This document shows, piece by piece, positions 6,395 to 56,800 of a stretch of 64,000 nt of DNA (position 1 is the first letter of the stretch; each line of letters opens with the position of its first letter). The notes beneath the pieces are model-generated. The model made no database searches and was not told the DNA's origin. It was given only the letters and a program-made list of their open reading frames with translations. This DNA is from a virus, in IMG/VR virus record IMGVR_UViG_3300042541_003876, positions 1 to 64,000 of that record; one strand, written 5' to 3'. The position numbers and the translations under genes were made by a program.

Positions 6395-6395
6395 A

Positions 6396-6650
6396 TTATT
6401 TTGTTTTAAAAATTTCTGAGTAAAGTTCTGCAGAATAAACACCAATGTTATTTTCTGCTCCGATTTCCTGAGTAACAACATCACCAACTACAATTTGGCA
6501 TGCTTGGTTATTGTCGATAAAAAGCCCAGGAGTTCCCATGTGACTTTCCCGGATATCCGCTTTGAATTCTTCTTTTATTAATTTAAGATTGGAGCCATCA
6601 TATTTGATTACTCTGAATTCCGGCTGTTGTTTAAATTGAACAATTTCCAT
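6396..6650 (-). CDS. Small protein of unknown function upstream of groEL
   Basis: 84 residues. Predicted beta-rich: EFRVIKYDGSNLKLIKEEF, GTPGLFIDNNQACQIVVGDVVTQE. No family recognised. It is the first gene of the groEL transcript, 28 bp downstream of a promoter-like element, and its stop is 1 bp from the groEL start. Confidence 0.6.
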   Translation of the reverse strand: MEIVQFKQQPEFRVIKYDGSNLKLIKEEFKADIRESHMGTPGLFIDNNQACQIVVGDVVTQEIGAENNIGVYSAELYSEIFKTK

Positions 6651-6838: not shown

Positions 6839-6980
6839 AACGGCTTATAACAGCACATTGCAAAAAGTGGCGGTTTAGTGCTAATATCAACTGTTGCGAT
6901 TCGGTTTAACTTTCGTTTTTATATCAAGTTTAGTACTTCGATTTCGCCACCTTCGGCAATCTGCAAACCGTTAGCGGTAA
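6839..6980 (-). repeat. attC-like fold-back repeat downstream of the 133-residue gene
   Basis: About 140 bp non-coding segment that folds back on itself: GCACATTGCAAAAAGTGGCG (6853-6872) pairs imperfectly with CGCCACCTTCGGCAATCTGC (6945-6964). Read in the direction of the adjacent gene it starts with CGCTAACGG and ends with GTTATAAG, the same layout as the element at 15001-15120. Such elements resemble integron cassette recombination sites, but the exact attC consensus is not met. Confidence 0.5.
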
Positions 6981-20844: not shown

Positions 20845-22329
20845 ATGGTCAATTATGACATACATGCACGAGACTTAATTGAACAGCAGATTCTTTCTTC
20901 CATCATCAATCTTTCAGCGTACAATACTATTGAAAAGGTTAAAAATTTATTTATAAATATTCATGGCCTTGACAATCCTGAATACTTTGGTTCTTCAATG
21001 AACAAAAGTGTTTTTATTGCAATTTTAAGATGTTGGGAAAATGAAGTTCAAGCAGATATAAGTATGGTTTGTACTTTCAAACCAAGAGATGTTATTGCAG
21101 GAAATAATCACTTACATTTTGAAGGTAAAAAAAAGAATGATGACGGTTCAAATAGCCTTTATGATTTAGATAATGATTGTAAGTATTTTGATAATTACAT
21201 TATCGATATTTCAATGAAATGGTTAAGTGAAACAAATCTTGAAAAAACAATTTTTATTCACAAGCAATTTATATTGATTGATTATTGGAATAATAAAGCT
21301 AAAGATATTCTGTATAACGAATGGGAGCAACGTGATATTCTTGTTGTTACCAAAAATATTATAGATGGTCACAATCTTTTATTTGATAAAATCACCAAGA
21401 CTTTTCAAAAGAACACCGAAGTTTTAACTCCAAAAGAAAGAATGAGATTAGAGCGCCAGCGTGTAAAAAATGGAGAAGTTATTTGGGTTCCTTCCGGAAT
21501 ACCACCGGTTGATATTAAATGGAAAGGCTATTGGAATGGAGAGGTTACTATCATTGCAGGAAGACCTTCAATGGGTAAAACAGCATTAATGATTGCTTCA
21601 GCAGTTCATTCAGCTTTTAACTTTAATAAAAAAGTAGCTTTCTTTTCCTTGGAAATGGATAAGACAAGATTAATGAATCATATTATTTCTGCAAAAACAG
21701 GGATCAGTTATAAGGCAATGAAAGAACATTCTACAACTGATCAGGAATTTGAAGTAATAGAGCAATGGTACGACTGGTTTGAAATAGAATCAAATTTGAA
21801 AATTTATGACATTCACGAGTGCCAGACTTTAGATGAAATTTTATATTTTATTCCAGGAAACGAAATTGTATTTATTGATTATCTTCAACTTGTGAAACTT
21901 GTAAAAACTACCAAGAAAAAGGATTTTGTCCGGGAACAAGATGTTGCCGAAATATCCCGAAGTTTTAAACTTGCTGCTTTACAACATCAAATACCTTTGG
22001 TTATTGGTGCTCAGTTAAACAGAGATGTTGACAAAAGACCAGGACATATTCCGGTTCTTGGTGATTTGCGGGAATCAGGTAGTATCGAACAAGATGCAGA
22101 CAATGTTTACTTTCCGGTAAGACCATCATATTATGATGAGATTGCAAATCCAGATGCGGTTATTCCGTATTGGCAAAAAGGAAACTTTACAATGCGTGGT
22201 GCAAAAGGTAGAGATACAGGAACTGATAATCTAAAATTCCACATGGATATGTTAACTTATAAATTTACAGACGGCCATTTACACACAGCGCCAGAACCCG
22301 AATTCAATGTCGGTAATATGAAAATCTAA
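20845..22329 (+). CDS. dnaB: Replicative DNA helicase, DnaB family
   Basis: 494 residues. N-terminal ~170 residues with DLIEQQILSSIINLS, the DnaB N-domain start. RecA-like C-domain: Walker A AGRPSMGKTALMI near 238-250, FFSLEMDK, Walker B FIDYLQLVK near 343, GAQLNRDVDKRPGHIPVLGDLRESGSIEQDADNV with the conserved arginine finger region. This is the ring helicase that unwinds the fork. No loader or primase gene is nearby in this window, so the primase must be elsewhere or come from the host. Confidence 0.93.
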   Translation: MVNYDIHARDLIEQQILSSIINLSAYNTIEKVKNLFINIHGLDNPEYFGSSMNKSVFIAILRCWENEVQADISMVCTFKPRDVIAGNNHLHFEGKKKNDDGSNSLYDLDNDCKYFDNYIIDISMKWLSETNLEKTIFIHKQFILIDYWNNKAKDILYNEWEQRDILVVTKNIIDGHNLLFDKITKTFQKNTEVLTPKERMRLERQRVKNGEVIWVPSGIPPVDIKWKGYWNGEVTIIAGRPSMGKTALMIASAVHSAFNFNKKVAFFSLEMDKTRLMNHIISAKTGISYKAMKEHSTTDQEFEVIEQWYDWFEIESNLKIYDIHECQTLDEILYFIPGNEIVFIDYLQLVKLVKTTKKKDFVREQDVAEISRSFKLAALQHQIPLVIGAQLNRDVDKRPGHIPVLGDLRESGSIEQDADNVYFPVRPSYYDEIANPDAVIPYWQKGNFTMRGAKGRDTGTDNLKFHMDMLTYKFTDGHLHTAPEPEFNVGNMKI

Positions 22330-24728: not shown

Positions 24729-26201
24729 ATGAAGAAAAACGAAGAAAGAATAACGAAGTTTTCTCCAGATCAAATTCTGGCTCTTGAGAGAATTGAGGAA
24801 TTCAGAAAACAACCCATAGTCAAGAATGACGTTAATTCAAGAGTAATGGTTATTATCGGCGCCGCTGGCGTCGGTAAAACCACTCTTATTAAATATGGTT
24901 TGGAGGACTTAATTGCAAAAGATACAGAAAAAGAGTATGATGATGAACAAGTAGATGGTGGTTTATTTTCTTCTACACCAGAAGTTATAGGAGTATGTTT
25001 AGCACATCAAGCAAAAAAGAATCTTAGAAAATCACTTCCACATACAAAAACTTTTGCTTCATTTTTCGGCATGAAAGAAACTCATGGCGATGAAGGACAA
25101 AAAAAATTTGAAGTTGATGAATATGCGCTTAGGTTTGCATTATGTAAAGCAGATTTATCATTTGTTGTACACGACGAAGTCTCTATGTATGATATTGATA
25201 TGATCAATATTATTTTGAAAGAAACTAATCCAAGAACTAAAATCATTTTAATGGGTGATGCATGTCAATTACCCCCAATTAATACAGTTGGTGATGATGA
25301 TAGTCCTGCTTTCGAAATGTTTACTAATGTAGTCGAATTAACTAAACGTCATCGTCAAGAAGAAGAAAATCCACTTCTTGAATTATCAGATATTTTAAGA
25401 GAAGAAATTCGTGGAAAACAAAATGTGAAACGAGTTTTAGAAGCGATGAAAAATAATAACATTGTTAATGGAAAAGGTTTTAGAAATGTTTTTTATAGAG
25501 ATTTTCTGAAAGATTATAAGTCGATTACTTCCAATTATAAAGAAGCAAAATTAATTGCTTACCGTCGTGCAACAGTTCAAGATTATAATATCAAAATTCG
25601 TAATTATCTTTATCCTACCGCTGATCAAATTTATATTCCAGGAGAAATAATTTACATGAATGATACTTTTAGGCAAGAAAAAAGTGAGCCGATAAATCCT
25701 GATGACCATTTGGATGAAATCATTAAAAAGAAACAGGCTCCTGCAGAATATTACTGTTACAATTCCGATGAATATGTCATCAATACAGTTGAAACAGGTT
25801 TTGTTGAAGGAGTAAAGATTTATAAAATCTATTTTGATAAGTCGGATCGTCCGGATATCGCCGTAGAAAAACCTTATTTTCCAATGCTTCATCCATCAGG
25901 AGTAACTAAGTACAATGAAACTTTTTATTATCGTCGTGGAAAAGCTTTAAATGAGTTTGACAGAAAAAAGAAAAAAGGTTATTGGAAATGGTTTTATATT
26001 TTCAAGAATCAGTTTGGTGATTGTTCTTATGCTTATGCATTAACAGGTCACAAAGCTCAAGGAAGCGGATATAAATACGTTTATGTTGATGTAAGCGATA
26101 TACTTACCGTTGGTCCAATTTCGGACAAAAGAAAGCTCCAAGCAATCTATACAGGAATGACAAGAGCAACAGATATCGTATTATTTTTAAAATCAAAATA
26201 A
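24729..26201 (+). CDS. SF1 helicase (Dda/RecD-like)
   Basis: 490 residues. Walker A IIGAAGVGKTTLI (residues 42-54), Walker B HDEVSMYD near 148-155, motif III MGDACQLPP near 174-182, motif IV-like TKRHRQEEENP, and C-terminal motifs YALTGHKAQGSGYKYVYVD and YTGMTRATD. This is the Dda/RecD/Pif1-like group of 5'-3' DNA helicases, used at stalled forks and in recombination. The start at 24729 follows 157 bp without a convincing gene. Confidence 0.9.
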   Translation: MKKNEERITKFSPDQILALERIEEFRKQPIVKNDVNSRVMVIIGAAGVGKTTLIKYGLEDLIAKDTEKEYDDEQVDGGLFSSTPEVIGVCLAHQAKKNLRKSLPHTKTFASFFGMKETHGDEGQKKFEVDEYALRFALCKADLSFVVHDEVSMYDIDMINIILKETNPRTKIILMGDACQLPPINTVGDDDSPAFEMFTNVVELTKRHRQEEENPLLELSDILREEIRGKQNVKRVLEAMKNNNIVNGKGFRNVFYRDFLKDYKSITSNYKEAKLIAYRRATVQDYNIKIRNYLYPTADQIYIPGEIIYMNDTFRQEKSEPINPDDHLDEIIKKKQAPAEYYCYNSDEYVINTVETGFVEGVKIYKIYFDKSDRPDIAVEKPYFPMLHPSGVTKYNETFYYRRGKALNEFDRKKKKGYWKWFYIFKNQFGDCSYAYALTGHKAQGSGYKYVYVDVSDILTVGPISDKRKLQAIYTGMTRATDIVLFLKSK

Positions 26202-26488
26202 TGAATAAAAAAAGTCAAGAAGAAATTTTTCAGGAAACCTGGGATAATTCAGAATTTAATGTTTTTAAGTATAAAAAAAAAGGTGGTAAAATAACCACAA
26301 AAAACGAAAGTTTTTTTCTTACCCCACTTCTTAAGAAAAACAAATTGTATACTTGGGAAAAGATTAATCGCGAAGCAACTTTGATTGTTGATGGGAAATC
26401 AGAACTTTCCTCAAAAGCGAGAGGTGTTATTGATCATGTTCACACTCATGTTCTTATTATGTATCAAAAACAATTCAATGGAGAATAG
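26201..26488 (+). CDS. Hypothetical protein
   Basis: 95 residues, Lys-rich, with TWEKINREATLIVDGKSELSSKARGVIDHVHTHVLIMY. Starts on the stop of the helicase gene (one-base overlap) and overlaps the exonuclease start by 11 bp. Translationally coupled; function unknown. Confidence 0.55.
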   Translation: MNKKSQEEIFQETWDNSEFNVFKYKKKGGKITTKNESFFLTPLLKKNKLYTWEKINREATLIVDGKSELSSKARGVIDHVHTHVLIMYQKQFNGE

Positions 26489-27362
26489 TGAGTTTATTCA
26501 ATTTGAAATAAAAGCTTCGTCTCATACGAATGCTATTTTAGATACTGGAAAGATTGCCTTATTCGATGCAGATTTTTTCAAATATCACGCTACATATAAA
26601 AGATTCAAAGAAATTGAATCAGATAAGCAAGCAGGAAGATTTCCGATATTTGAAAAAGAATTGCCAATCCTGAGAATAGTTAAAAGTATGCTTGCAACAT
26701 ATTTGCTGAAAATTAAGGATCCTATTATTTTTTGTTTTTCTGGAAGTTCCAAAAATACTTTTCGTGCGCATTGTGCTGTTGAAAAAGAATACAAAGGAAA
26801 CCGTAACAAAACTGAGGATAAGTATGATTACGATGGAAAGATGAATGATATTTTTACTTTAATGAAATTCATTAAGGAAAATTATATGTCATTGCTTTTC
26901 GAAGATTTAGAAGCAGATGATATTGTTGCGGTACTGCAGGATGAAAATACCTATATTATTTCTCAGGATAAAGATTTAAAACAAGTTCCTGGATTTCATT
27001 ATAATTTTGGAAACAATACCATTGAGGAAGTCACAAAAGATCAGTCAATGTACAATCTGATGTTCCAGATGATTAAAGGAGATACCACGGATAATATCGC
27101 AGGTATTCCGGGCGCCGGAGAAAAAAAAGCAATTACTGTACTTTCAGAAGTAAGACCACCTAAATATATTAGTAGGGTTTTATTTGAATACCAGTCTAAA
27201 TTTGGATTAATGGAAGGAACAGACCGATTTGTTGAATCGTGGAATTTGATAAAAATGAGAATGAATAGAGGTGTTCATTTTCGTTCCAAATACCATCGAA
27301 TGTTTGACCTCAAAGAATTACTCATTAATCAATTAAAACAAGAAAAAAAGATAAAGAGTTGA
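26478..27362 (+). CDS. 5'-3' exonuclease / flap endonuclease (PIN-like)
   Basis: 294 residues from the ATG at 26478; a longer frame starts inside the previous gene and has no support. Acidic metal-binding residues: IALFDADFFKYH (Asp of motif I), LEADDIVAVL, ISQDKDLKQV, and the helix-3-turn GDTTDNIAGIPGAGEKKA (H3TH DNA-binding motif). This is the phage T5/T4 RNase H and DNA polymerase I 5'-nuclease family. It removes RNA primers or flaps during replication. The stop codon lies inside the following terminator stem. Confidence 0.86.
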   Translation: MENSEFIQFEIKASSHTNAILDTGKIALFDADFFKYHATYKRFKEIESDKQAGRFPIFEKELPILRIVKSMLATYLLKIKDPIIFCFSGSSKNTFRAHCAVEKEYKGNRNKTEDKYDYDGKMNDIFTLMKFIKENYMSLLFEDLEADDIVAVLQDENTYIISQDKDLKQVPGFHYNFGNNTIEEVTKDQSMYNLMFQMIKGDTTDNIAGIPGAGEKKAITVLSEVRPPKYISRVLFEYQSKFGLMEGTDRFVESWNLIKMRMNRGVHFRSKYHRMFDLKELLINQLKQEKKIKS

Positions 27363-29334: not shown

Positions 29335-29994
29335 ATGGCAACTGAAATAAACATGACCGAAGTCTATTTTGAATGGTGGTTAAAAGAACTTCAAGCAAAA
29401 GGGTTGGTATTATATTATGAAAGAGAACCTCAAAGTTTTGTGTTGACGAATCCGGTTCAAATCTTTTACAATCAATTCAAAGCAACTAAAGAGATTATAA
29501 AATCTTTTGAATTATATTCACCATTAACATACACTCCTGATTATAAAGTAGTGATTTCCGAAAAACTAAAAAATAGATTATTCGGTGTTGTTTCAAAGGA
29601 ACAGCAGATTTTAGAAGATGAGGATTTTAACGAAATAGGTTCTGCTTATCAAAATACTATTTTCTATACTGAGTCGCTTCAAAAATCTAAAGATTATCCA
29701 GGTTGCTATGAAATATGGTTTGATGTAAAAGCACCGAATGCTGCATCAAATGTTAATCCTCGTTTAACATCTACCAGAGATTTTAAATACGTCTCTCGTT
29801 TGATGTTTGACACTCATGGAATAGTCGTTAATAAAGTCGTTCCTATTGGAATGAAAACGTGTTTATTTGGTAAAACATTTATGCCAAAAAGATATAGGTA
29901 CACGGATATTTCCGGACAGCTTAGAAAATTAAAAGATTATGAATCTGGCTTTCGTAATCTTGAACAGTATTTAGAAATCAAAAAAGTAATTTAA
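29335..29994 (+). CDS. PDDEXK-like nuclease candidate
   Basis: 219 residues. LTYTPDYKVVIS (near 62-73) and EIWFDVKAPN (near 125-134) match the PD-(D/E)xK spacing of endonucleases, with a preceding helix containing EVYFEWWLKEL and a following RDFKYVSRLMFDTHGIVVNKVVP strand-helix. Similar phage proteins act as Holliday-junction or recombination endonucleases. The E of helix 1 and D/K in WFDVK are the expected catalytic residues. Family membership is by pattern only. Confidence 0.6.
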   Translation: MATEINMTEVYFEWWLKELQAKGLVLYYEREPQSFVLTNPVQIFYNQFKATKEIIKSFELYSPLTYTPDYKVVISEKLKNRLFGVVSKEQQILEDEDFNEIGSAYQNTIFYTESLQKSKDYPGCYEIWFDVKAPNAASNVNPRLTSTRDFKYVSRLMFDTHGIVVNKVVPIGMKTCLFGKTFMPKRYRYTDISGQLRKLKDYESGFRNLEQYLEIKKVI

Positions 29995-30012: not shown

Positions 30013-30648
30013 ATGCAATTATCAAAAGTATTATTATTAGGACTTTCACACTTTTCAATTGATGTGAAACAAACAGAAACCAAAGTTACTGTGGTCTTTT
30101 CTCCAAAAACAACTGTTACCGATCCTGCGGTAAAAGATTTAAAACCATTAATTATTAACTTTGATTCTCCGGAAGAAATGGATGAGAAATTTGTGGAAAT
30201 GATTACTGGGCCAGTTCAAAAAACAGTTCAGTTGTTTACGGGTATCGAAGATTACGAAAAACAATTAGCAGCAACCGCCAAGAAAACCAAAGAAGCTGAT
30301 GCTGAGAAAAAAGCAAACAGTACCGCGGCGGCGAGTAAAAAAGCAGCAGATGCAAAGAAAAAAGAAGAGGTTGCAAAAGCAACTCCTACTTTAGAATTTA
30401 CTGAAGAAACTCCAGTGGAAAAACCTGCAGAAGTAGAAACTAAAAAAACAGCACCGGAATTAATCAAGGAAATATCTGATAAAAATAAAGCTGAAGTTCC
30501 GGTTGTTGAGGAAGCAAAAGTCGAAGAGGAAATCATTCAGACTCATTCTTACGACAATGAAGATGTTGTTGATGCAACAGACCAAGAGCAGGAAGAGGAA
30601 GAAAATCAAGAAGATTTATTTTCATCAGTTCCGGATTTATTTTCTTAA
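30013..30648 (+). CDS. PRTRC system protein E
   Basis: 211 residues. The N-terminal part (LSHFSIDVKQTETKVTVVFSPK, TDPAVKDLKPLIINFDSPEEMDEKFVEMI, then PVQKTVQLFTGIEDYEKQL) matches the Bacteroidota PRTRC E pattern (xDPAxxxLxPLxxxGTxxELDxxF). A long low-complexity Lys/Ala/Glu region follows and the tail is acidic (DQEQEEEENQEDLFSS). PRTRC is a plasmid/ICE cassette whose molecular task is not established. First gene of the cassette here. Confidence 0.75.
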   Translation: MQLSKVLLLGLSHFSIDVKQTETKVTVVFSPKTTVTDPAVKDLKPLIINFDSPEEMDEKFVEMITGPVQKTVQLFTGIEDYEKQLAATAKKTKEADAEKKANSTAAASKKAADAKKKEEVAKATPTLEFTEETPVEKPAEVETKKTAPELIKEISDKNKAEVPVVEEAKVEEEIIQTHSYDNEDVVDATDQEQEEEENQEDLFSSVPDLFS

Positions 30649-30666
30649 TCATTAAATATTTATAAA

Positions 30667-30888
30667 ATGGCTACAGTACAAGCAATTACCAGAAAGTTCT
30701 CATTAAAAGTAAATGGAAACACTATAGAGTTAGATGATCCAAATCCGGAATTATCTACAGACGAAGTAAAAGATATTTTGTCTAATCATTACCCTCAATT
30801 ATTAAATTCAACTATTAGTGACAAAGGTCTTTCAGATAACGGAGACCACACTTTTGAATTTATTACTGTTGCAGGAACAAAAGGATAA
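30667..30888 (+). CDS. PRTRC system protein C (ubiquitin-like fold)
   Basis: 73 residues. The core IELDDPNPELSTDEVKDILSNHYPQLLNSTI, then HTFEFITVAGTKG, is the PRTRC C signature (L.DPNP.....V..FY...YP.L..A.V ... F....GTKG). From memory, this family corresponds to a Pfam prokaryotic-ubiquitin entry: a beta-grasp protein that ends in Gly, the group that E1-like enzymes adenylate. Here the C-terminus is Gly-Thr-Lys-Gly with a single terminal Gly. Sits between E and the F-position gene. Confidence 0.82.
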   Translation: MATVQAITRKFSLKVNGNTIELDDPNPELSTDEVKDILSNHYPQLLNSTISDKGLSDNGDHTFEFITVAGTKG

Positions 30889-30891
30889 AAT

Positions 30892-31095
30892 ATGAATGCA
30901 AAACAGTTTTTAAAATTCTGTAAAGAAAGAGGGGTCGGTAACGATCCCTCTTTTTCTATTGGAAAAGTAAAAAAAGAGAATTCCAATATTATAAACTTAA
31001 TGTCTTCAATATGCAAAACTCAAAAAAATCAATCGGAACACAACACATTCCAGGAGAAATTATACCAAGCAAAAACAAAAACTTTTTTGAGTTAA
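30892..31095 (+). CDS. Possible small protein between PRTRC C and the F-position gene
   Basis: 67 residues, MNAKQFLKFCKERGVGNDPSFSIG and then a Ser/Asn/Lys-rich part. It starts 3 bp after the stop of C, as expected of a coupled gene, but overlaps the next gene by 85 bp and contains a terminator-like hairpin (30926-30957). It may be a short leader peptide rather than a full gene. Confidence 0.35.
   Translation: MNAKQFLKFCKERGVGNDPSFSIGKVKKENSNIINLMSSICKTQKNQSEHNTFQEKLYQAKTKTFLS
30926..30959 (+). terminator. Terminator/attenuator inside the PRTRC operon
   Basis: 12-bp stem AAAGAGGGGTCG/CGATCCCTCTTT with a GTAA tetraloop (a GNRA type) at 30938-30941, one G-T pair, followed by TTTCT. It lies between PRTRC C and the F-position gene, so it probably lowers expression of the downstream ThiF/B genes relative to E and C. 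Confidence 0.65.
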
Positions 31096-32084
31096 CATCT
31101 TTGTTACCTCGAATTATTGTTCAAAATCAAAATGAAAAGAGTTTTGAATGGTATGTTTCTTATTGCGAATTACTTATTAAGATTTTAGAAAACTATAATC
31201 TTTTAGACCAAGTTGATTTTGAATTTGTAGAATATGATTCTATAATAACATTAACAATAGAACTTGAACGAGTAGTACAACTTATTGAAGGCTGGACTGA
31301 TGATACATCTCGTCATGATTATTCAGATGAACTTGCTGTTTCGATATACACTGAAGATTTCAAAAACAAAAAATTAAAAAACGTAACATTAGGATTTCCG
31401 GATTTAAACCCAGATTACATTTATGTTTATTATATAACACAATTCCGAAAATTTAAAAGCCGAAAAATGAGAATCGGTTTTTGTCATTTTCTTCATCATT
31501 TTAAATACCTCACTCCATTACCATTATCTGATGATGCACTTTCCTATTACACTACTTTAGAAATGGAGTTAGATAATTATGAAGACTTTGATCCGGAAGA
31601 AATGCAAGATGACACTTTTGTTTCTGGTCTTTTTGATATGAAATCTTTACTTGAAACCAGAGAACCTATTTTGAAAAAAATATTTTCTGAGTTCAATGAA
31701 TATTCTATTTCTTATTATTCAGAGTTCCTAAGTTACAATCCTCGGGATCCAGAATTAAAAAAAGTCAAAGAATCAATAATTTTCTGTGTAGATAACTTAA
31801 AAGGTTTTCATGAAAAATACGGATGTTCTTTTTATGGTGCCGATGAAGGTGGGATTCACTTTGAAGAAATGTTTAGGATTTTTCCTGAAAAAAATGGAAT
31901 AGATGACTATGAAGTTGACAGTATTCAAATTAATGCTCAAAATGGAGTCTTACCATTAGAGTCTTTTTTAACATTTAACAAAACAACTATAAATTTCGAA
32001 AAAAGAGAAAAATCAAAAAAGATTTTTAATGAATTATTACATCACTTAATTGTAATTTCTGAATATTTTAATAAAGATGAATAA
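31011..32084 (+). CDS. Large protein in the PRTRC F position
   Basis: 357 residues. Many Tyr/Asp/Glu; motifs LEYDSIITLTIELERVV and YYITQFRKFKSRKMRIGFCHFLHHFKYL are distinctive but not assigned. Its place between C and B matches the F gene of other PRTRC cassettes, but sequence agreement with PRTRC F could not be established, so the label is positional. Overlaps B by 8 bp. Confidence 0.5.
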   Translation: MQNSKKSIGTQHIPGEIIPSKNKNFFELTSLLPRIIVQNQNEKSFEWYVSYCELLIKILENYNLLDQVDFEFVEYDSIITLTIELERVVQLIEGWTDDTSRHDYSDELAVSIYTEDFKNKKLKNVTLGFPDLNPDYIYVYYITQFRKFKSRKMRIGFCHFLHHFKYLTPLPLSDDALSYYTTLEMELDNYEDFDPEEMQDDTFVSGLFDMKSLLETREPILKKIFSEFNEYSISYYSEFLSYNPRDPELKKVKESIIFCVDNLKGFHEKYGCSFYGADEGGIHFEEMFRIFPEKNGIDDYEVDSIQINAQNGVLPLESFLTFNKTTINFEKREKSKKIFNELLHHLIVISEYFNKDE

Positions 32085-32739
32085 GAAAAAAAAAGAAGAA
32101 AAAACAGACCTTATTGGGGTAATATCTGTTTACGAGAATTTAGTTTTATACCATTCAAATAAAAATGGAGAGCTGTCTGCCGGTAAACTTTTAGATAAAG
32201 AATCAATGAAAAAGATTTTTAAATTTTTACAGACAGGTTCAGATTTGGTTTCATACAAATTTGAAGGAATGGTTCCGGAAAATGTTTTAAAATACAATTC
32301 CGATAACGGTGATCTTTTGTTTTACACAAAACCTCAACGTCGCACAATGATATTCAAAAAAGACCTTCCTGTGCAAACTGCAGAATATAATTTGCCTTAT
32401 ATCTTATGGCAATATACAAATGGAAGTCTTAAAGTTTTTTCCTTAAAATCAAAACCTAAAAACGAAAAAGATATTTTATACAATGCCCCTTTCTTTAACA
32501 CTAATTCAAGCGGCCTTGTATGTATGGGAAATGTTAATTATAAAAACAATACTGGCAAATTCAATGGCTTTATGGACCAGCTTCAAGAATTGTTTTTTAA
32601 TTCAATTTTTAATGCAAGTCATAACAACAAAATGGCTACAGAAAACATCATTGATGTTTATGAAAAAGCAAAATCAAAAGATTTTAACTGGAATGAATAT
32701 TTGGTTAAATCATCATATACTTTAAAAAACGTATTATGA
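32077..32739 (+). CDS. PRTRC system protein B (E2-like fold)
   Basis: 220 residues. ALPYILWQYTNGSLKVFSLK-like segment (YNLPYILWQYTNGSLKVFSL), then YNAPFFNTNSSGLVCMGNV with Cys149, then FNGFMDQLQELFFNSIFNASHNN. These are the PRTRC B landmarks; the Cys before the GN segment is the best candidate for an active-site cysteine. From memory, the family was predicted to have the E2 ubiquitin-conjugating fold. Coupled to ThiF by a 4-bp overlap (ATGA). Confidence 0.75.
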   Translation: MNKKKKEEKTDLIGVISVYENLVLYHSNKNGELSAGKLLDKESMKKIFKFLQTGSDLVSYKFEGMVPENVLKYNSDNGDLLFYTKPQRRTMIFKKDLPVQTAEYNLPYILWQYTNGSLKVFSLKSKPKNEKDILYNAPFFNTNSSGLVCMGNVNYKNNTGKFNGFMDQLQELFFNSIFNASHNNKMATENIIDVYEKAKSKDFNWNEYLVKSSYTLKNVL

Positions 32740-33464
32740 GTTACAAAATAAATGGATATTTACAAAATCCAAACCATGCAATTACTGTTGATGTAGTTGG
32801 TTGTGGCGGTACCGGTTCTTTTGTTCTTTCAAGATTAGCAAGATTAAACTATGCTCTTAAAGCAATGAATCATCCCGGACTCCATGTGAAAGCTTACGAT
32901 GATGATAAAGTAGAATCTCATAATGTTGGTAGGCAAAATTTCTACGAAACGGATGTTAACGATTACAAATCAACAAATATTATTGAGAAATGTAATATGG
33001 CTTACGGAACAACTTGGGAAGCTTTTAGAAAAAAACACGATGCAAAAATAAATTCAAATATTTTGTTTTGTTGCGTTGATAATGTTCAATTCAGAAAAGA
33101 AATCTATGATCGTGGTAAAATAAAAATTACTAATCATACAATGTATAATCAAGGATTGTATTTGTTTGATTGTGGAAATGGAAAAGATTTTGGCCAAGTC
33201 ATAGTTTCGGAACTATTTGATTCTAATTTAAAAGACACCATTGATTTCTTTCCGGAAATGATGTCTCAAGACAATGAAAAAACTCAGGGAACTAAAGGTT
33301 GCAGTTATGCAGAAAAACTTCAAGAACAGAGTTTATTTATTAATGATTTTATTTCTGCAGAAGCTTGCAATTTATTTTTTGTGATGCTTACGTCAAAAAC
33401 AATTGATTACCAAGGCGTGATTATCAATCAGAACAATTTTAAAAAACAACCGTTAAAAATTTAA
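32736..33464 (+). CDS. PRTRC ThiF-family (E1-like) protein
   Basis: 242 residues. Rossmann start VDVVGCGGTGSFVLSRLARL (GxGGxGS, Gly22-Ser28), the conserved NVGRQNFYETDV segment near 64-75 (Arg in the adenylation site), and CVDNVQFR. Cysteines such as Cys189 in TKGCSYAE could form the thioester. This is the E1/ThiF/MoeB fold that adenylates the C-terminal glycine of a ubiquitin-like protein. Last recognisable gene of the cassette; the JAB protease (A) and D genes of plasmid cassettes were not found nearby. Confidence 0.88.
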   Translation: MSYKINGYLQNPNHAITVDVVGCGGTGSFVLSRLARLNYALKAMNHPGLHVKAYDDDKVESHNVGRQNFYETDVNDYKSTNIIEKCNMAYGTTWEAFRKKHDAKINSNILFCCVDNVQFRKEIYDRGKIKITNHTMYNQGLYLFDCGNGKDFGQVIVSELFDSNLKDTIDFFPEMMSQDNEKTQGTKGCSYAEKLQEQSLFINDFISAEACNLFFVMLTSKTIDYQGVIINQNNFKKQPLKI

Positions 33465-36376: not shown

Positions 36377-39300
36377 TTAAAACATATTATTCAAAGCTGC
36401 AACCGGTGCCGGAACAAGTTTTCCTGCAAGCCTGTCTGAATTCAATATCAAATGACTATCCGAAATTAATTTATCAATAGCAGGATTGTCTGTAAATGTA
36501 TTTACTGCTGCCAAAGAAGAAACTAATCCCATTGTCACCAATGCTGAATTTAATTTTTTTCTTTCATTAGAGTCAAGGTTTTTGTAATAATTTACAAAAG
36601 TTTTAGGAGTCCATTCACCACGATATCCTTTCTGAATTGTTTCAAGCAAAGCAGTATAAGTTCCTATGGTAACATTTCCATAACGGTCAATGTCTTTTTT
36701 GCCAAATAAAGTATTGAACATTGTTGGAATGTACCTATTAAACTGCATCATTGCTCTTCCCCATGAATACATTTGAATCATTCTTTGATCAGTTGGTTGA
36801 TAACCTCTGCCATGAACTGCTTTAATTTGATCTTCATAAAGAGTCAATTTATTTGAATTAATTGGATTTCCATTTTTTAAAGTTTCCCATTCTTCATCTT
36901 GAAGTTTACCTAAAAAATGTACACCTTGAATCCATTTCTCACTCCATGTCATTGGAAACAAAGCAATATTCATTAGATTTTTTTCTACTGAATTTTTGTT
37001 ATCCATATTGACATCATCGTAGATATTAATATCCATGAATCCAGCAGTTTTCAATACCGCCATGGATTCCCGAATTCCCTTAAAAGGATCGGTGATATCA
37101 AACTTCCCACTTTTTCCCATCCAAAATCTTTTTTCTCCTTTTAGCCAATCGGTACCACCAGCTTCTACAACATTGTTGAATTTACCAATCAGCACATTTC
37201 CCACTGCATAAACTCCGGCACCCATTGCTAAACCCTTCCATCCAAGCCAATAAACTAAACTTCCTTTGGTGATATAATCAACGACTTTATCCGATGTAAT
37301 TCCCATTGCTTCCAATGCAGGAATATTAGGAATTGAACTTTGTTTTTGACCGCCAATAAAATATTGTTTCCAAACTTTGTTTACATAATCTGATACATTT
37401 TTATCTCCATTAGCATCTGCTTGTGCAAGAATTCCGTCAATAACTGGAACCATTTTTTTAAAGCCTTGAAAATTTTCATTTCCATGCTGGAATAATGTAG
37501 CATGAGCATAATCAACAAAAGATTTGTTTAAATCCAGCGAAGGAAAGTCTGCGGACTTCACACTCCTTCCACTTGCAAACCTATCCATAAACACATCACC
37601 TAAAGCCCCGCCGATTTCGATAGGGCTTTGGAATATTGGTGAACCGTCTTGGTTGATTCCTTTTTTATTTAAAACAATTGCTTTTCGTTTTAACTTTATA
37701 TAATCTAAAGCGTGCCGGTTACTCCGGTTTGGGCCTGCCGATAATCCATTGTAGATGTCAGTGATTTCTTTGAATGAAACTCCTTTCATTAACATGGCGT
37801 TGACAGGATTTATGATATCCATTTTAACATCGTTGATTTTTTCATCAACTGTTTTGGCATTTACCATCAATCCAAGCAATCCCCTTCTTGATAATATTTC
37901 CCAGTTTGCAGGAGCAACGTGCGGTATATAATCTTTCCTTCCTGATTTCCCTTCTGGCAAAGCAAATCCTTTTAAAGCATCAGTCGTTGCACGTGAAATA
38001 TTGTAGAAATTATATTGAGCATCGGAAATACTTCCGGCTTTATGTTCTCTCTCTACAACCTCTCTTGGTTTATACCTCATTTCATTGTAAGAATTCCCTT
38101 CATTATCTTTTTCAATAATAATCATCAAAGGCCCATAAAGTTTTTGGTAAATTTCCTGTTTGTTTCCAAACAAATTTGTCTCAACATTTTTGATGTAATT
38201 TTTAATATTACCTGAAATTCCTTTACCGCCGTAAGGCTCATAACCTAACTGTTCTTTGTATAAAGCATTGGTAGCATCATTAATTTTACCGACAATTTTA
38301 CTTCTTTCATTCAAAAAGTTTTTATACTCTCCTTCCATTCGGCGAACTAAGTTTTGTACAGCTGGGTGATTACTGGGAACATTTCCGGTCATGAAATATT
38401 TCTGCAAAATAGAAATATCATTTCCGTCATATTCGCGACCCGTTAACATTGTTTGGTCAGTGGCTGCTCTCGTAGCTAATTCTTTTATGATTGGTGCCAC
38501 AATTTCAGCATAAGCAAATTTATTCCGGTTTCCAAAACCAACTCCATTTCCATATTTATTTCCGATATCATCACGAGAATCATAAAGCTTCAGTAATTCA
38601 TCATTACTCATTGTTTTTACTGAATCAGTATTAATGATCGATTTTAATTTATCGGCTTCCATTTTATTACTGACATATGCCTGATGCATGGAAATTTTAC
38701 GGTTTTCAGAAAACTCTTTAGAATACTCCATAACCTGATCATATTCGTCTTTGTTCATCAGGCGAGCAAAATTCCAGTAATCTCCCCGCATTTCACGTCC
38801 ATCTGACAGTTTACTCATATCCAATGGTCTTGCAGTAGATTCATTAAAAATACGGTCATTTATGCCTGTTTCCAGCGTTGCAGGATTTTTAATGGTGATG
38901 TAATCCAAATTAGGATTTGCATTGTATTTACCAGCGTAACTTTTTGAAATCAACCTATGAATTGTCGGCAATAATGTATTGCTGTAATATTCTTTAGTGC
39001 TTGAACTTTCTTTATCCAGTTTCAGCTGAGCTCTCGTGTCTTTATCAATCCCTTGGAATTTTTGAATTAAGTCTTTTCCAGATTTGTCTTTTGTTCGGAA
39101 AATAAACGGGTCACCTTTCATAAATGAAGCCATTAAACTTTCATTGTTTACAGACAATTCGGGATTCAAATTTCTTTCACCATTTCTGCCGTAGGAAAAT
39201 ACATTGTCATAGCTTCTGAATAAATCAGGGTTATTAAAAATGGCTTTGTTTTTTAATTGCTGCAACTGAACATCTGTAGCTTTATTTTCTTTTGACATTA

Positions 39301-42300
39301 CAGATACTGTCTGTTTGATCCCACTCTCAAATAATGGAAACAACGAGTTTGGTCCTGACCATCCATTTTTCATCAAATCATAAAGAATCAAATCATTCTT
39401 AAGTTCCGACGGAAGCGCCGCAAATTCCTGAATCATTTTGCTTCTCAAAGTATCATCAGCAGAATTATTGAAAAAATCACTGTTCAAAGAAATATATTTA
39501 TTGCTTGATTTTAGAGATAAGTTTAAGCCTTGAGTAAGCAATAAATTGCTTTCAAAATTGGTAACACTGGCATTAGGGTTTTTGCTGTCATAAAAAGCAA
39601 AATCTTTTTTGTACTCAGTAATCTGTTGAGCTAAATTGTTGAATATGTTTTTTGGTCCAGGAACCTGGCGTTTTGTTGCTGGATCAATTTCATATTTTGT
39701 TAAAGCTTCATAAACTTCGCGATCCACATTATTCAATCCTAAAGCCTGAGCAGTATGGAAAATATCCAAAGCATTATACAAAGCTTTGTGATTATCAGCA
39801 CTCATTTCTTTTGTAGACAAACTGGTAATTTCATTGTAAACTGCTTCGGTATTTCCGGAATAAACAGGATCCAGCTTTTTCTGTGCATCTTGATTTTTAA
39901 TCAAAACATTTTTGTAATTCTGAACGATAGGACTGTTTTTAAAATCATCATTGGTAATCAAATGACGGTTATTATCCGGATTCATTCTGTTGTCAAAGTT
40001 TTTGATAACGTCATTAATCTCAAATGGATTTACGGTCATTGTATTGTGAATTGACAGTACAGCACTAATGTCAGAAAGTTCAGTTTCCATTTGATTGATG
40101 GTATTAATCAAATTGTACAATTCAATTTCTTGTGACTCAATTTTTTTCGTATCGATGTTTATTTCTGAAAATTTACTTCTTTTTAAACCAAATTCAGTAC
40201 GAAGTTTTTCCATCACATTATACTTCTCATCTTTATTGAAAGCACTGGTATTATTATTTTTTAACGCTGAATATCTTTTGATCATCGGTGAATTTAGAAT
40301 AACTGCAACCTGGTCCAAATCAAATCCAAGATTAGTAAGTACCATTGCAATAGGAATGGTATTAGTGTCAATTCCCAATTTATTAGCAAAAGCATTTTTG
40401 GAATTATCCAGAATAATGTTGAAGTTTTTCGCTGAATTAATGGATATTGATTTGTCTGCAGCATCCATAAATTGGTCAGCATAATTACCATCGATATTAA
40501 TCGGAACTTTAATTCCAATACCGTAATTTCTAAACATTCCTAAAGTCGTATGAAGATTGGCTGCCAATCCCACATTTGCTTTTGCAATCAAAGTATCTTC
40601 GAAAGCTTTTTGTCTACCTCTGGAAGAAAATGGTAACGTAAAATCAGTTTCGGTTTTTCCCCAAACTTTTTCAGCTGCTTCCACTGCATTTTGCGCATCT
40701 TCTTTAAAGTCGATATCCAATCGGATTTCGTCCTGCATCTGAGGGTTCAGATAATGTTTTTCAATTTTACCCAAAATTCTATTCCAGTCACCGGTCCTGC
40801 TTCCTTTGTGCTGAACAAATATCGGATCACCATCATTATCAGAACCGATGGTTTTTTTAAACTCATTTGGCAATTGGATATTATTTCCTTTTTCTCCGGT
40901 AGTCCCTACTACTTCAAAAACTCCTGTAGACTGAATACCATGTGAAGGAATACGCGTTGCCAAAACGGTGTCTCCGGCGGCGTAAAATCCTATATGTTGA
41001 CCACTTGCATTGAATACTTTTCCAACTTCAGTTCCGCGGTTATTTGCTTCTGATTTAGCTAATTTCATTTGCTCTTCCAACGATGACTGTTCCGTATAAG
41101 TTCCAACAAAATATTTTCTGACTTTCAGTTTATTTCTTTTGTTGGAATCAGAACCATCTACCATTCCTTCCGGAATAACAACCTCACCTTTTGAAACGGT
41201 ACCATTGGAATTTGTTTGGTAGAAATTTAAACCAACGTTTCCGGATTCAGCATTTAAGTCTGAACTTGTTGCATATTCTTTTTCAAATAATGATGGTTTT
41301 TCCCGGAGGATTCCCCCGGGGGTTTTTATTTTCAAACCATTCTGTTTGATGTAATTGGCGATTGTATTTTTTACAATTGATTTTACTGCAGGAGTTTGAA
41401 GTGATACATTTTCATTGAATAACAAAAAGTTTTGAGTCTGGTCAATTAAATTCGGATCAATCAAATCTTTGATAAAAGTTCTGATTTCTGAATCGGTACC
41501 ACTTATTAATGTTTCCATTCCGACAGTCAGCTGTTGTTCAGAAAGATTCCTAATGTCATTTAAAATATCATTGACAAAATCTTCATTTTCATTTAAAGCT
41601 ATATTGCTTGTAAGCGATTTGATGAACTGAACAGAAGTGTTGGCAAAATCTTTATCAATATCCATTACCTGTTGAATACCAAAGTTAGAACCGTCTGCAC
41701 CGATAAAGTCATCACCTTCGTAATACATTTTATCCAGCTGATTTAATGCTTCCTGAAACTGTTCCGGATTGCTTTCAAAAGCATCGGTAATATTTTGGAA
41801 ATTCATTAAAGCCGGATTTTCATCGGTAGTTCTATGATTGTAATAATCAGGAAGATTGTTTGATTTATTTGCCGAAATAGGCACAATCATAGGAATATAG
41901 TTTCCGGTACCATCCAACAAATTCATTGAAGGTTTACCATATTTAGATTCGTATTTTGCTTTTCTTGCTTTCAACAATTCATAAGCGCCTTTTAAAGCAG
42001 GGTTTTTAATGACAACCTCATCATTAAGAACGGTAGCAAATCCTTTGTTGTAAATATTCTGGCCAAGCATTCCCGGAGCATTTCTCTCAATACCGGTATG
42101 AATCAGTTTGAATGAATTACCTAAAAGCATCATGTTACCACCAGCTGATCTAAATCTTTCTGCGTCATCTTCCAAAATATAAAATCCGGAATCGGTTGCT
42201 TCAAAATCATCCAATTCATTGATTTTAATATCTTCCAAATAAATCGGTTCCACGCGGGTATTTGGAAAAGTAAACATCGGCGATGATGCAGATTTTGCTC

Positions 42301-45300
42301 TTTTCACCAACTCATTGTCTCCATTTGCTTTTTTCATCTGGAACGACGGAAAGAAAATCTCAGTAAAATTGGTACCATTGATAATTTGATTCATTTCAAA
42401 TTCTGCAATTTTCATTTGGCCGTCACGGTTTAATTTACCTGTAGCTGGATCAGTAATTTTTTGGAATTTCTTATCATATTTAAATGAAGTTAAATTGTCG
42501 TTAACAAAATTAATTTGATCTTTTACAGAATCCAACAGCAAGCCTTTAAATTCATCAAAAGTTCCGTTGTAACCCAAAGCCTTGTGAGTATTATAAATAT
42601 TGTCTAAAAACGCTCTGTTGGTAAAATCAATGCCGTCTTTCCCGATTTTCATAATATCAGCAATATCTGTTTTAGGCATTTCGGTATAGAATGCTCGTGT
42701 ACTGTCTGAGAATCTTCCCAAGTCCATCAAATAAGTTCCTGCTTTGTCAGTATTCAAAAAAGTAACAAATTGGCTTAATCTTTCAGTAACAGGATCACTT
42801 GTTTTTAAAGTGGTTCGTTTATCATTGTTATAAGCATTTTGAATTCCACCGTATTCCAATAAATCGATATCTCCACCATTGGAAATTCTATCATAAATAA
42901 ATCCTGCAAATTTGTTGGATAATGCTCCTTTTCCTTCAGTATTTTTCAAAGAATGTTTAGCGATAAACTCATTTTTTGAATTTCTTAAAACATCTTCTTT
43001 TAAATATTTAAAATTACGTGAGAGGTAATTATCGACAATTCTTGCTTGGTGCATATTGTTGTCTGCATGCATTACGGTATAATCAGCGCGGTACTTACGG
43101 TTTTCATTGATAAGACCCTGTACTACCATTCTGATTCCCGGCTTCATAATAGAAGCGTTATTTGAATCTAATTTATAAACTCCAGAAGTGAATTTATTAC
43201 CAACTTTTTTAATGAACTGTTTGGTCTTGGTATTACGAGCTCCTTCTACATTTCTAATTTCACCAATAAAACCATTTCCACTTTGATCTGTAGCTAGAGA
43301 AACAATAATTTGGTCAAGCGGATAAGCTTTACCATTAATATTAATTCTGTTTGCTGCAATCAAAGATTTTGAGTCAATACCAAATTCATTACGAACTAAA
43401 AATCTAGTAATAACATTAATGTCATTACGTGTGTAATCGTTGTTTTGAATATTATTCAAAGATTGATTTAGAGTAATATATTCTTCCTGTAAATCAGAAT
43501 TGTTTTTACGGTTGTTTCCAAAGAAAGGCTCTTTGATACTTTCCATAATATTTTCATATTGAGTCTTTTCTTTGTTGCTTAAATTTAATTCTACTTGGGA
43601 TTCTCCGGAAGGATTTACATAATTTTTAAATGAAGAAATATTACTGGTGTTATTCTCGTGCCAGTAAAACATTTGCATTACCATATTTTTGTCACCACGG
43701 TTTATTTTATCTAAATGTTTTAAAAATTCCTCAACTTCATAATACGGTGATTCTTCCATTCTTCGGATAAAATCAGAACCGGACCACGCAACTTTTGCCA
43801 ATCCACTCATTTGATAACGAAGCTGGTCAGCTTTCACATAAGGAATGTTTTTCCAGTTGGCTTTTTTTCCATTGATACTATTGATATAGGAAATTCCTTT
43901 ATTCATTTTCCGAGTAAATGCTGTAATCAATGGTGTAATTTTGTTTACATACGAAAACCGGTTATCATCATCAAAAAAATTATTGAAATCAATATCATCA
44001 ATTAAGTTTTCTAAATCTCCGGAAGCTAATCTTTGCGGTAAAGTTTCATTATTGATAAAAGCTTGGCGCTCTGCTTCAATGGAATTTTCAATTGCTTGTA
44101 GACGATTTGAAATCTGGTCATTGTTTTCCATTTCTAAAGATGCGCGACCATCTGCAGAAATAAGTTTGCCGCTAATTTCATTTTGAAACTGATCTAAAAT
44201 AGAATTTAAATTATCAGAATATTCAATTTGATCATCCTCACTTAAAGTTTTGAAAAACACTTCTCTTTCAGATTTATTACCAAGGTTTTTTCCTTGCTCT
44301 TTGATTTTTCCCCACCATTTTTTTGCAAGAAATTTTCGGCGAGGTTCATCTTCAATTGAAGGATTACTGTCTTTGAAATATTTGTTATACTTGTCAGATA
44401 ATGGACCTTGTAATGTTGCCGCGAAAACTTCATCAGCGATTACCTCCTGTTCTATCAAAGGAATATTTGTAATGAATCCTTTTTTGATTAATTCTTCAAT
44501 TTTAGAATCTCTTTCTTCCTGGGATAAGTCTCCAAAATTTTGGAACAATTGTTCCCGAAAAAGAATTTCACCATCTTTTTTACGGTACTGAATTTTATCT
44601 TCGTAACGATCAAGAATATTATTAACCAAAGTTTTGTTTCTAAAACCATTTCTCAGCATTCTTTGAGTTTCCTCGGTATCTTTAGTCAAAGCATAGTAAA
44701 TGTGCGAAGCTTCATGCATGAAAACATCATTCTGGTACCACTTTGATTCGTCAATATAGATTTGTCCGGCCAAGGCAAAGCCCATAGCTTTTACGCCTAC
44801 AGTTTCCTGCATGTTGCGAACAGAATAAACATTAATGTTCATATCTGGAAATACTCTTTTCATTGCATTGGAAACTCCAATCGATTGTGATAAGAATTCA
44901 AAATCAGCGGTACCGAAATCACTTTCAAAAAAATTAACTGCTTTTCCTTTTTTGTTTCGAAGATTGTTTAAACCATTGGAAACAATATCCAAAGCTGAAC
45001 TGACAATCTTTTCTTTATTGAAAAATTTATTTTCTTCCTGTCTTGCATCACGACGATCATTGAACATATCAGGATTTGCAGGTTTAACAGTAATTTTTTC
45101 TTCTGAATTTTCTTCAGCTGCTGGTGATGCTTCATTAATGGATTTTTTACCACTAATGTTTTTCATCATTTCTTTAACCTCAATTTTTTCTTCGTCGGAT
45201 AAAGTTTCATCGTTATCCACAAATTTTGAAGGGTTATCCACGATTTCATCAACTTCGGTTTTGAAAGCTTCATAAACCTCAGCTTGTTTTTTAGTCAATT

Positions 45301-53882: not shown

Positions 53883-56800
53883 TTAAAGATTTGAATGTCT
53901 GACAAAATTAAGGAAAGAAAAGATGTTTATATTTTTGTTGTTCTTAGACTCTACTTCAATTTCCAATGAAGCCCATTCTCCACGCAAATCCGCGTAATCC
54001 ATTCTGTTTTTTAAAGGAACATTATGAACGCCTTCATGAATCTGGTACCGGTGATGCTCTCCAAGAATTACTCTTTGTTGTCCTAAACTCGTTTTAGCAA
54101 TGATTTTTTTAATCGGATAATCAATATTTATTGTAGCAGCCCACGCTTTGAAAACTTTTACTGTTTGAGGATTATCATTCATGGTAATTTCAATTTTCAA
54201 AGTTTTTTGTTCACCAAAAATATTCATGTTAATTCCTTTATTGAATTCGTGGATTCTCATTTTATCAGTAATAATTTTTGGAGCAAATACTGAATTTTTC
54301 CACATAATAAAAATATTGGAATCAATCTGCATCCATCCATTAAATACATCAAATAATTCATTAAAAGAAAGCATAAAACTGTTTCCTGATTTAGTAGTCA
54401 TTCGGATATTTGTTTCTTTGTATTCATCATCATAATAACCTTCTGTGTCTACAATAGGATCATTTTCAAAAATCTCTCTAAATTTTAATTGCAATGATTT
54501 CTGTGTAAGCTTGGGAATAGTATTTTTAACCCACTCAAATCGCTTTTCATCGATGAATGTAAATCCACCTAATTTCTGATCATTAGATATTGCTTCGACA
54601 ATTGCTCTACGGATTGAAGTACCAAAATCAGAAACCGGCGTATGTCCTGATATCTGGTTTCCGGTTCCCTGCTTCATGGAAATTTCTCCGTTAGTTGTAG
54701 GAATTGCAACGTTTTCATTAATTATTAACTCCGATGTTTGATTTTCTTGAATAACGAAAATTTTATCAAGAAATTTAGAAAGATTATAAGCTACACCTTT
54801 ATTTTTTTCAACTTCATAAAAATTGTTTGTTCGAAATGATGACCAACTATCAATATAATCTCCATTTAATTTTGGGTCTGATACAGCTAAAATATTTGAA
54901 AGATTTGGATCATCTTTAAAATTGTAAGGTTTTGGAATGTAAGTTTTCAGATTATTTTTTTGTAAATAAGCTTCGTTAATAACACCGCGTTCCCGTGACG
55001 AAAAATTTATTTTATCTTTTCCGTCTTTATAAAATAAATCATCATGAGTCCATCTTGGTTCTATAGAAGTTTCAATTACTACAGCGTACAAAGCACCTCC
55101 TTTTCTTGTATATTCTTCTTCTTCATACTTTGGTCTACATGACGAATGATTTTCCATTTTTACTTGATAAACATCATTGTCGTTGAAGTAAGACTTCATT
55201 CTTAAAAATAAAGTACAATAAGTATCTCCAAAAACTTTTATTTTTTGAATATTATTGGAATAAATCAAAACAGGAATAGTTTCAGATAATGGTGCGTATA
55301 CATTTTTACTATATGATAATTCTGAACGTCCTCCATAAATAGAATCTTTATTGTTAATAATAATATTTACTAAAGCATGAGTATCATAGACAGGCATTAT
55401 TCCATAATAATCTAACTTAGGATCAATGTAACTATGAGCATCTAATTTAACTGGACTTTGATTAATAAAGCTATTAGTAAATAAATTTTCTTTTGTTTTA
55501 ATAAAAACAGTATCATTTCCTACAGCGTGATTTGCAGACATAAACAATTCATAATGCAAAGCTGTTCCTGCATTACTTGTATTATTGCATTTTTCATCTG
55601 CTCTAGTAGTATCTAAATAATACCACGCTGGTCTTCCAAGTGTCATTGCATTATTTGACATCTGCTGTTGCATTCCTAATGATGATGAGCTTTTAATTTC
55701 TCCAGCTGCAAACCTTTCTGATTTATCAATATTTAAAGAAGTAAAAATTTCATTAGATTGACTTTCTAAAAACATTGAAAAATGAGTCATTAAAGGTCTT
55801 TCATTTTCACTTCCTTCGATATTATCCATTTGAATTCTTCGGCTGAATGCAGGATAATTTTCTGGAATATATACAGAATATAAAGAATCCCGACGTTTAT
55901 CATGATTTAATCTTGCAACAGGTTTTACTTTTCCATTTTGAATTTTATCAGAACTTATTAAATTGAAAATAATATCTGGAGCATCAAAATAAAATAAATT
56001 TCTTGCAGTTACAACTCTTTTATATGGTTCTGATCTATCAGATTCATTAATATTATTATCTCCAGTCAAAAGTCCATGATAATCATAAGTTGGTCCACCA
56101 AAATAAGGAATATTCCATTTGTTATTTACAGGATCTGGAAGATTTACATATTCTGTATGATAAAAATTATTTGTTCTTTCTAATGGCGCCGAAATTCCTT
56201 GACAAAGAATACTTCTATTATCTTCTGTGCGTTCAACATAAACAATTTGATACATTGAGATTCTATCTTGAAGTTCACAAGATAATCGAACATCAATTTC
56301 CAAATAAATACCAATTGACTTTAATAATTCGCCTTCAGTAATACTATTTTTATAAGTTTCTGAAGTAATTACAGGGTTTCCGTTTTCATCAATATAACTG
56401 ATCTGTTCATTTAAATCCGGAATCTTAATGTCACCTAATGGAACTACAAATGGAGTACTGCCATCTTTTAACCAGACTTGTAATCCAAGTCGGTATATTT
56501 CACCTTTCATGAAATATCTTTTTTGATTTGGCTTTACTAAGTCTACCAAAGGTTTTGTAGTTAGAAATCCTCCCGTAGATTTTCTTGCTAAATCTGCTTG
56601 TTCAGTTTTAAAAGTAACGCGAATCCCATTACCTTGGTTAAACCCTAAACTTTGATAACCTCTTATTTTTGTTCCTGGAGAATTTAAGTTTTGAAATTTA
56701 ATTTCATCCTGATAATCTTCGATGATCTGAATAGTACTATACTTAAATTCTAAATTTGAAAAATCAAAATCAACCAATAGGTTTATTTTTGAAAACAGAA

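Follow-up and report, generated by a model that had tools for sequence, protein, structure and literature searches.

The window, as we call the whole stretch of DNA analysed here, comprises 64,000 nucleotides (positions 1 to 64,000) of the IMG/VR virus record IMGVR_UViG_3300042541_003876, which runs to 77,741 bases (77.7 kb). At 30013-33464, the open reading frame (ORF) list places five genes of a PRTRC cassette, all on the + strand and in the order E, C, F-position, B and ThiF, as an earlier note on this DNA had described. Small base overlaps join F to B and B to ThiF, as in a translationally coupled operon. The features are:

30013..30648, + strand: PRTRC E homologue, 211 residues, with an N-terminal PRTRC_E domain and a charged disordered tail
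30667..30888, + strand: PRTRC C, a ubiquitin-like protein (Ubl) of 73 residues that stops exactly at GTKG
30892..31095, + strand: ORF of 67 residues that lies after C and runs into the beginning of F; it may not be a gene
31011..32084, + strand: F-position protein, 357 residues, mainly helical and fast-evolving
32077..32739, + strand: PRTRC B, E2-like (Prok-E2_D), 220 residues, with Asn141-x7-Cys149
32736..33464, + strand: PRTRC ThiF, E1-like adenylating enzyme, 242 residues, with a near-invariant Cys189

Family membership of E, C, B and ThiF, proposed in the earlier note from the letters alone, was borne out by profile searches, with C and ThiF exceeding their NCBIfam cut-offs and E and B their Pfam cut-offs. 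C matched PF14454 Prok_Ub (1.4e-16) and TIGR03738 (4e-15, 55.7 bits; cut-off 45.95), and ThiF matched TIGR03736 (5.3e-56, 189.7 bits; cut-off 144.75) and PF00899 (4.7e-9). E passed the cut-off of 26 for PF19556 (1.7e-13, 51.1 bits) and fell slightly below the 37.95 of TIGR03741 (2.2e-8, 34 bits); B was over the cut-off for PF14460 Prok-E2_D (1e-21), a family matched by 72/72 of its relatives, and under that of TIGR03737 (1.2e-21, 77.2 bits; cut-off 131.45). A profile of C gave no meaningful match in the PDB. The F-position protein matched no library family in profile searches; nevertheless, an ORF occupies this position between C and B in 139 loci, and a profile grown from the window protein alone recruits most F-position proteins of Bacteroidota, its four matches among 1,089 control ORFs all being further F-position ORFs as judged by position. 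The same profile reaches the annotated proteobacterial PRTRC F at E ~0.1 only, a value that does not establish homology to it. Hence, we assign the 357-residue protein as F by synteny and by a profile uniting the Bacteroidota-type F proteins, not by profile to the annotated proteobacterial F. Its AlphaFold2 model is of moderate confidence (mean pLDDT 71.8), with no fold match in the PDB. The 67-residue ORF had only a weak PHROG match (E 0.006), and small ORFs lie in the same C-F gap in two other loci, L063 and L010.

The earlier note had drawn attention to Cys149 in B and, in ThiF, to GCGGTGS and NVGRQNF; all three occur in the window proteins and are conserved. In the ThiF alignment, GxGGTGS, D55, D57, N63, R66, K78 and D115 are each conserved in at least 91 of 93 relatives, and Cys189 in 91/93; in that of B, Cys149 is found in 92/92 and Asn141 in 90/92 relatives. 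Canonical E2s have a spacing of eight residues between the Asn of the HPN motif and the catalytic Cys, as do Asn141 and Cys149 of B. AlphaFold2 models B with confidence (pLDDT 90.6), in an E2-like order of helix, sheet, Cys loop and helix. Profile matches of ThiF in the PDB comprise UBA6, UBA1, ThiF, UBA5, Cap2 and BubCD. Judging from these features, we consider it quite likely that the cassette carries out the predicted conjugation chemistry. The resemblance of the ThiF domain to ThiF and MoeB would also suit a scheme in which ThiF activates C as a sulfur carrier of the ThiS/MoaD type, for cofactor, tRNA or DNA modification without any protein conjugation; but the accompanying B is of an E2 family with an invariant Cys, the cassette showed no sulfurtransferase gene among its members, and the closest PDB matches of ThiF are the protein-conjugating E1s UBA6 and UBA1, making a sulfur carrier most improbable.

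The earlier note had also remarked that A and D appear to be missing, and indeed PRTRC A, any Prok-JAB protein, D and PRTRC ParB were not found in the 77,741-base record, which may be incomplete. To place this absence, we turn to a survey of 155 cassettes from phages, plasmids and genomes, in which A, the JAB protein, is present in 51 and absent from 104; because of the latter number, the presence of A does not define the PRTRC core. An extension of C past GxKG, 3 to 98 residues in length, occurs in 39 of the 51 A-bearing cassettes, such that every tailed C (39/39) co-occurs with A, and in 0/104 A-less cassettes, the window included. The A-less C proteins end in Gly in 103 cases and in Ala in one, the latter being the C of L022 (starting at 6966), which ends GTKA. 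Non-redundant counts were 27 tailed with A, 10 untailed with A and 89 untailed without A, and the association of tail with A gave a Fisher p of 1.5e-19, ancestry ignored; the ThiF tree requires ~5 changes of A. A two-way rule, with tail and JAB each requiring the other, fails because 12 A-bearing cassettes are untailed; the rule is thus one-way. The JAMM residues E, HxH and D are kept in 24/24 A proteins. Because the tail of C occurs only in cassettes with A, we surmise that A probably matures tailed C by cutting at the terminal Gly. The simplest reading is then that lineages without A, phages such as that of the window among them, encode C in an already mature form, and a pre-matured Ubl would explain the missing JAB.

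Among known systems, the PRTRC system itself (TIGR03734-TIGR03742; e.g. C. metallidurans pMOL28) shares the order and orientation of E, C, F-position, B and ThiF, with profile matches for C, ThiF and E; it differs in that the window cassette sits on a crAss-like phage without A (JAB), D or PRTRC ParB, that its C has no C-terminal extension and that its F lacks a profile link to the annotated F of proteobacteria. The type 6d operon of Iyer, Burroughs and Aravind (2006; PMC1779556), listed also from Bacteroides thetaiotaomicron, combines a Ubl with C-terminal Gly, a helical fast-evolving protein, an E1-like protein and an E2-like protein that has the Cys but not the His of HPN. These components are shared by the window cassette, whereas the JAB, which was predicted to process and remove the Ubl and is fused to or beside the E1 in every operon described (PMC1779556), has no counterpart in it. 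The window cassette is thus a JAB-less variant of PRTRC / type 6d. The downstream His of the E2-like protein, called absolute in the same work (PMC1779556), corresponds to Ala180 in the window B; this His is found in 45 of 71 A-less vs. 19 of 21 A-bearing B proteins. Phage lambda TAPI/TAPK (PMC1779556) likewise represents a phage-encoded Ubl, there with a JAB in a tail operon, but has no E1 or E2, and the window cassette is in a replication block instead.

Bil, Bub and CBASS Cap2 share the logic of E1-like and E2-like proteins with a Ubl, and the window ThiF profile matches Cap2 and BubCD; by contrast, the window E1 is separate and short, there is no JAB, and the genes sit in the replication block of a phage, not in a defence locus of the host. 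Since these Ubl systems act in phage conflict (PMC10097602, PMC12135933), C could be conjugated to host proteins such as defence sensors, the host replisome or RNA polymerase for counter-defence or takeover, the location in the replication block reflecting early expression only. An early-type operon that is phage-borne and has no JAB to reverse the mark would fit such a role. Arguing against it, PADLOC defence models gave only weak ThiF-domain matches to E1-E2 models (best E 1.5e-4), and related cassettes on plasmids with ParB, as well as beside a phage clamp gene, point to replicon functions; on balance, we regard such a counter-defence or takeover role as unlikely.

Terminase, portal and tape measure genes are encoded on the same record as the cassette, the portal being ~22% identical to those of crAss-like phages, along with one further virion gene:

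53883-58466 of the window, - strand: Crassvirus muzzle protein homologue (PF25731, 1.2e-62), a crAss-type virion gene

Because the terminase, the portal and the Crassvirus muzzle are on the record, we assign the element to the crAss-like phages. Its host is probably a member of the Bacteroidota, as in the ThiF tree the window protein falls with chromosomal loci of Flavobacteriaceae and a contig of Flavobacterium. The cassette has a GC content of 0.30 vs. 0.316 for the window, a base composition matching that of the phage. A search for the same gene order in other phages, as recommended by the earlier note, found 189 IMG/VR contigs with a ThiF relative by alignment; among the 80 of these that were examined, C, B and ThiF follow the same order in nearly all and E is found in most. 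An IMG/VR search with the window ThiF sequence alone found no close relatives. A canonical terminase is present in 19 of 50 cassette records, and a crAss muzzle over cut-off in 7 of 50 records of a second set overlapping the first. The window cassette is therefore not unique but one of many A-less phage cassettes. Among 50,697 GenBank phage records, the full cassette was found in Burkholderia phage BgVeeders33 only, together with A, and no published report of PRTRC on phages was found in the literature searched. Misassembled host or plasmid sequence, which the earlier note had named as its own refutation, is unlikely given the matching base composition and the recurrence of this cassette next to replication genes across many independent phage contigs.

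The E-C-F-B-ThiF order is also seen on a Bacteroidota plasmid, and a gut contig deposited as phage (L006) combines E-C-F-B with a transposase and a ThiF whose frame is broken; this contig could be an integrative element and not phage DNA. From such occurrences, one could view the cassette as passenger genes that came from a plasmid or integrative element of Bacteroidota and do nothing for the phage, a very improbable view considering that it is intact in many divergent phage lineages with conserved catalytic-type residues and has the base composition of the phage. Two further loci carry a JAB or JAB-like protein together with ThiF or a relative. In Salmonella phage Arash (L005, 2240-4539), a JAB-like protein accompanies a ThiF relative annotated as 'structural protein'; in the gut contig MT835919 (L004, 1-7140), a JAB gene and a ThiF gene are joined by a beta-clamp gene overlapping ThiF, with a B-like gene further on.

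As to where the system may act, the cassette follows, on the same strand, genes for replication and recombination, a placement already recognized in the earlier note. The relevant features are:

20845..22329, + strand: DnaB-like replicative helicase (phrog_19, 6.8e-58)
24729..26201, + strand: Dda-like SF1B helicase (phrog_325, 3.1e-74)
26385..27362, + strand: exonuclease (phrog_107, 5.2e-41)
29335..29994, + strand: protein of 219 residues directly upstream of E, with blastp and profile matches in ~16 PRTRC-bearing loci
30607..30621, + strand: QEDLF, residues 199-203 of E, resembling a sliding-clamp-binding motif, in the E tail

DnaB homologues are found in ~40 PRTRC loci, the window included, and the 219-residue protein lies just upstream of the cassette in L093 and often in the replication block elsewhere. 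A gene family adjacent to the cassette is the beta sliding clamp DnaN, with three DNA_pol3_beta Pfam domains. DnaN is present in 16 of 50 viral cassette records, one copy per record, and in 12 of them it is within ~70 bp of the cassette, either upstream of E or downstream of ThiF, as compared with ~0.7 expected by chance if the records were independent. This context of sliding clamp and helicases favours a replication role over host-defence evasion, which the earlier note had listed among the possible roles. A replicon module for maintenance, partition or copy control that is common to plasmids, integrative elements and phages, and in which C would act upon ParB-like or other proteins bound to DNA instead of the clamp, would accord with the PRTRC ParB directly upstream in proteobacterial plasmid cassettes and with a family labelled ParB in ~40 loci; it appears quite improbable, as the window record has no PRTRC ParB or D and many phage cassettes sit with replication genes.

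The E tail bears on the same question. As published, the motif for clamp binding reads Q-aliphatic-x-[L/M]-[F/L], the second position being tolerant (PMC11139829). Window E finishes in PDLFS (30631-30645), and several other E tails end QTSLF, QNSLF or QTNLF. [LI]F within the last five residues was seen in 24 of 97 non-redundant E proteins vs. 0.7 expected in shuffled tails, and Q..[LFI]F-type ends in 6 vs. 0.0 expected; many E proteins of Bacteroidota finish with acidic runs in place of LF. The tail is compatible with a putative role of E as clamp adaptor, and other interactions of its hydrophobic tip are possible as well.

Taking what is read directly from the sequences, namely gene content, conserved catalytic-type residues, the tail-JAB rule, clamp-gene adjacency and the E tail motif, we envisage the following for the catalysis, the order of transfer, the target and the roles of E and F. 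C would be produced already mature, ending GTKG, and ThiF would adenylate its terminal glycine, probably followed by a thioester of C on ThiF Cys189; B would take C onto Cys149 and transfer it to a lysine of the target protein. E, with its flexible charged tail and terminal LF, and F would serve as adaptor and scaffold guiding the enzymes to the replication machinery, which gene context suggests as the best-supported site of action. The sliding clamp is a plausible docking site, being the phage's own clamp in relatives and, because the window record has no clamp gene, that of the host for the window phage. As the record lacks a JAB, the phage would leave the mark in place. As a combined statement, a JAB-free PRTRC (Iyer type 6d) Ubl-conjugation module acting in a phage replication operon is one we put forward tentatively, at a little under an even chance. 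The more specific proposal, that in Bacteroidota phages a pre-matured JAB-free Ubl marks the clamp or clamp-bound replisome proteins with E as docking adaptor, in a viral analogue of PCNA ubiquitination/SUMOylation, is speculative and distinctly unlikely in all its detail.

Several observations weigh against this scheme. B has a probable E2 fold on account of PF14460 and the conserved N-x7-C, but its predicted structure did not provide proof, as Foldseek returned no significant match (best E 0.46, with two E2s at E 1.3) and the B profile found no match among PDB sequences. Accordingly, of the minimal conjugation module described in the earlier note, the Ubl/E1/E2-type cassette on a real phage holds up; structural confirmation of the E2 fold of B was not obtained. 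No report of conjugation by any PRTRC system was found in the searchable literature. With respect to the tail-JAB rule, ~4 independent pairs have tail and A changing together and never oppositely, with a p not below 0.05. No DnaN was found in the window phage, where the clamp argument is one of analogy. The clamp-adjacency statistic is itself weakened because the records are related, and the upstream arrangement may be one ancestral state inherited by many of them; set against this, the upstream, downstream (L015) and JAB-ThiF-clamp (L004) arrangements differ from one another. Lastly, the LF motif as a marker of clamp adjacency was not significant (4/11 vs. 9/50, p 0.23).

Elsewhere in the window, the phage encodes a GroEL/Cpn60 (4781-6487, - strand; PF00118 4e-55, phrog_5725). 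An ORF of 3,963 residues (36377-48268, - strand) has no Pfam match and contains a zincin-like HEASH motif as well as SDNDGDPIF, which recalls the DxDGD of crAss-like RNA polymerases. No relatives of the protein at 60481-62403 were found in the IMG/VR search.

PRTRC is a widespread cassette, and clamp adjacency together with the E tail motif suggests a concrete site at which it may act; the tail-JAB rule provides sequence evidence for maturation of C by A at the terminal Gly. If the proposed scheme is true, phages would be using an irreversible Ubl pathway at the replication fork.

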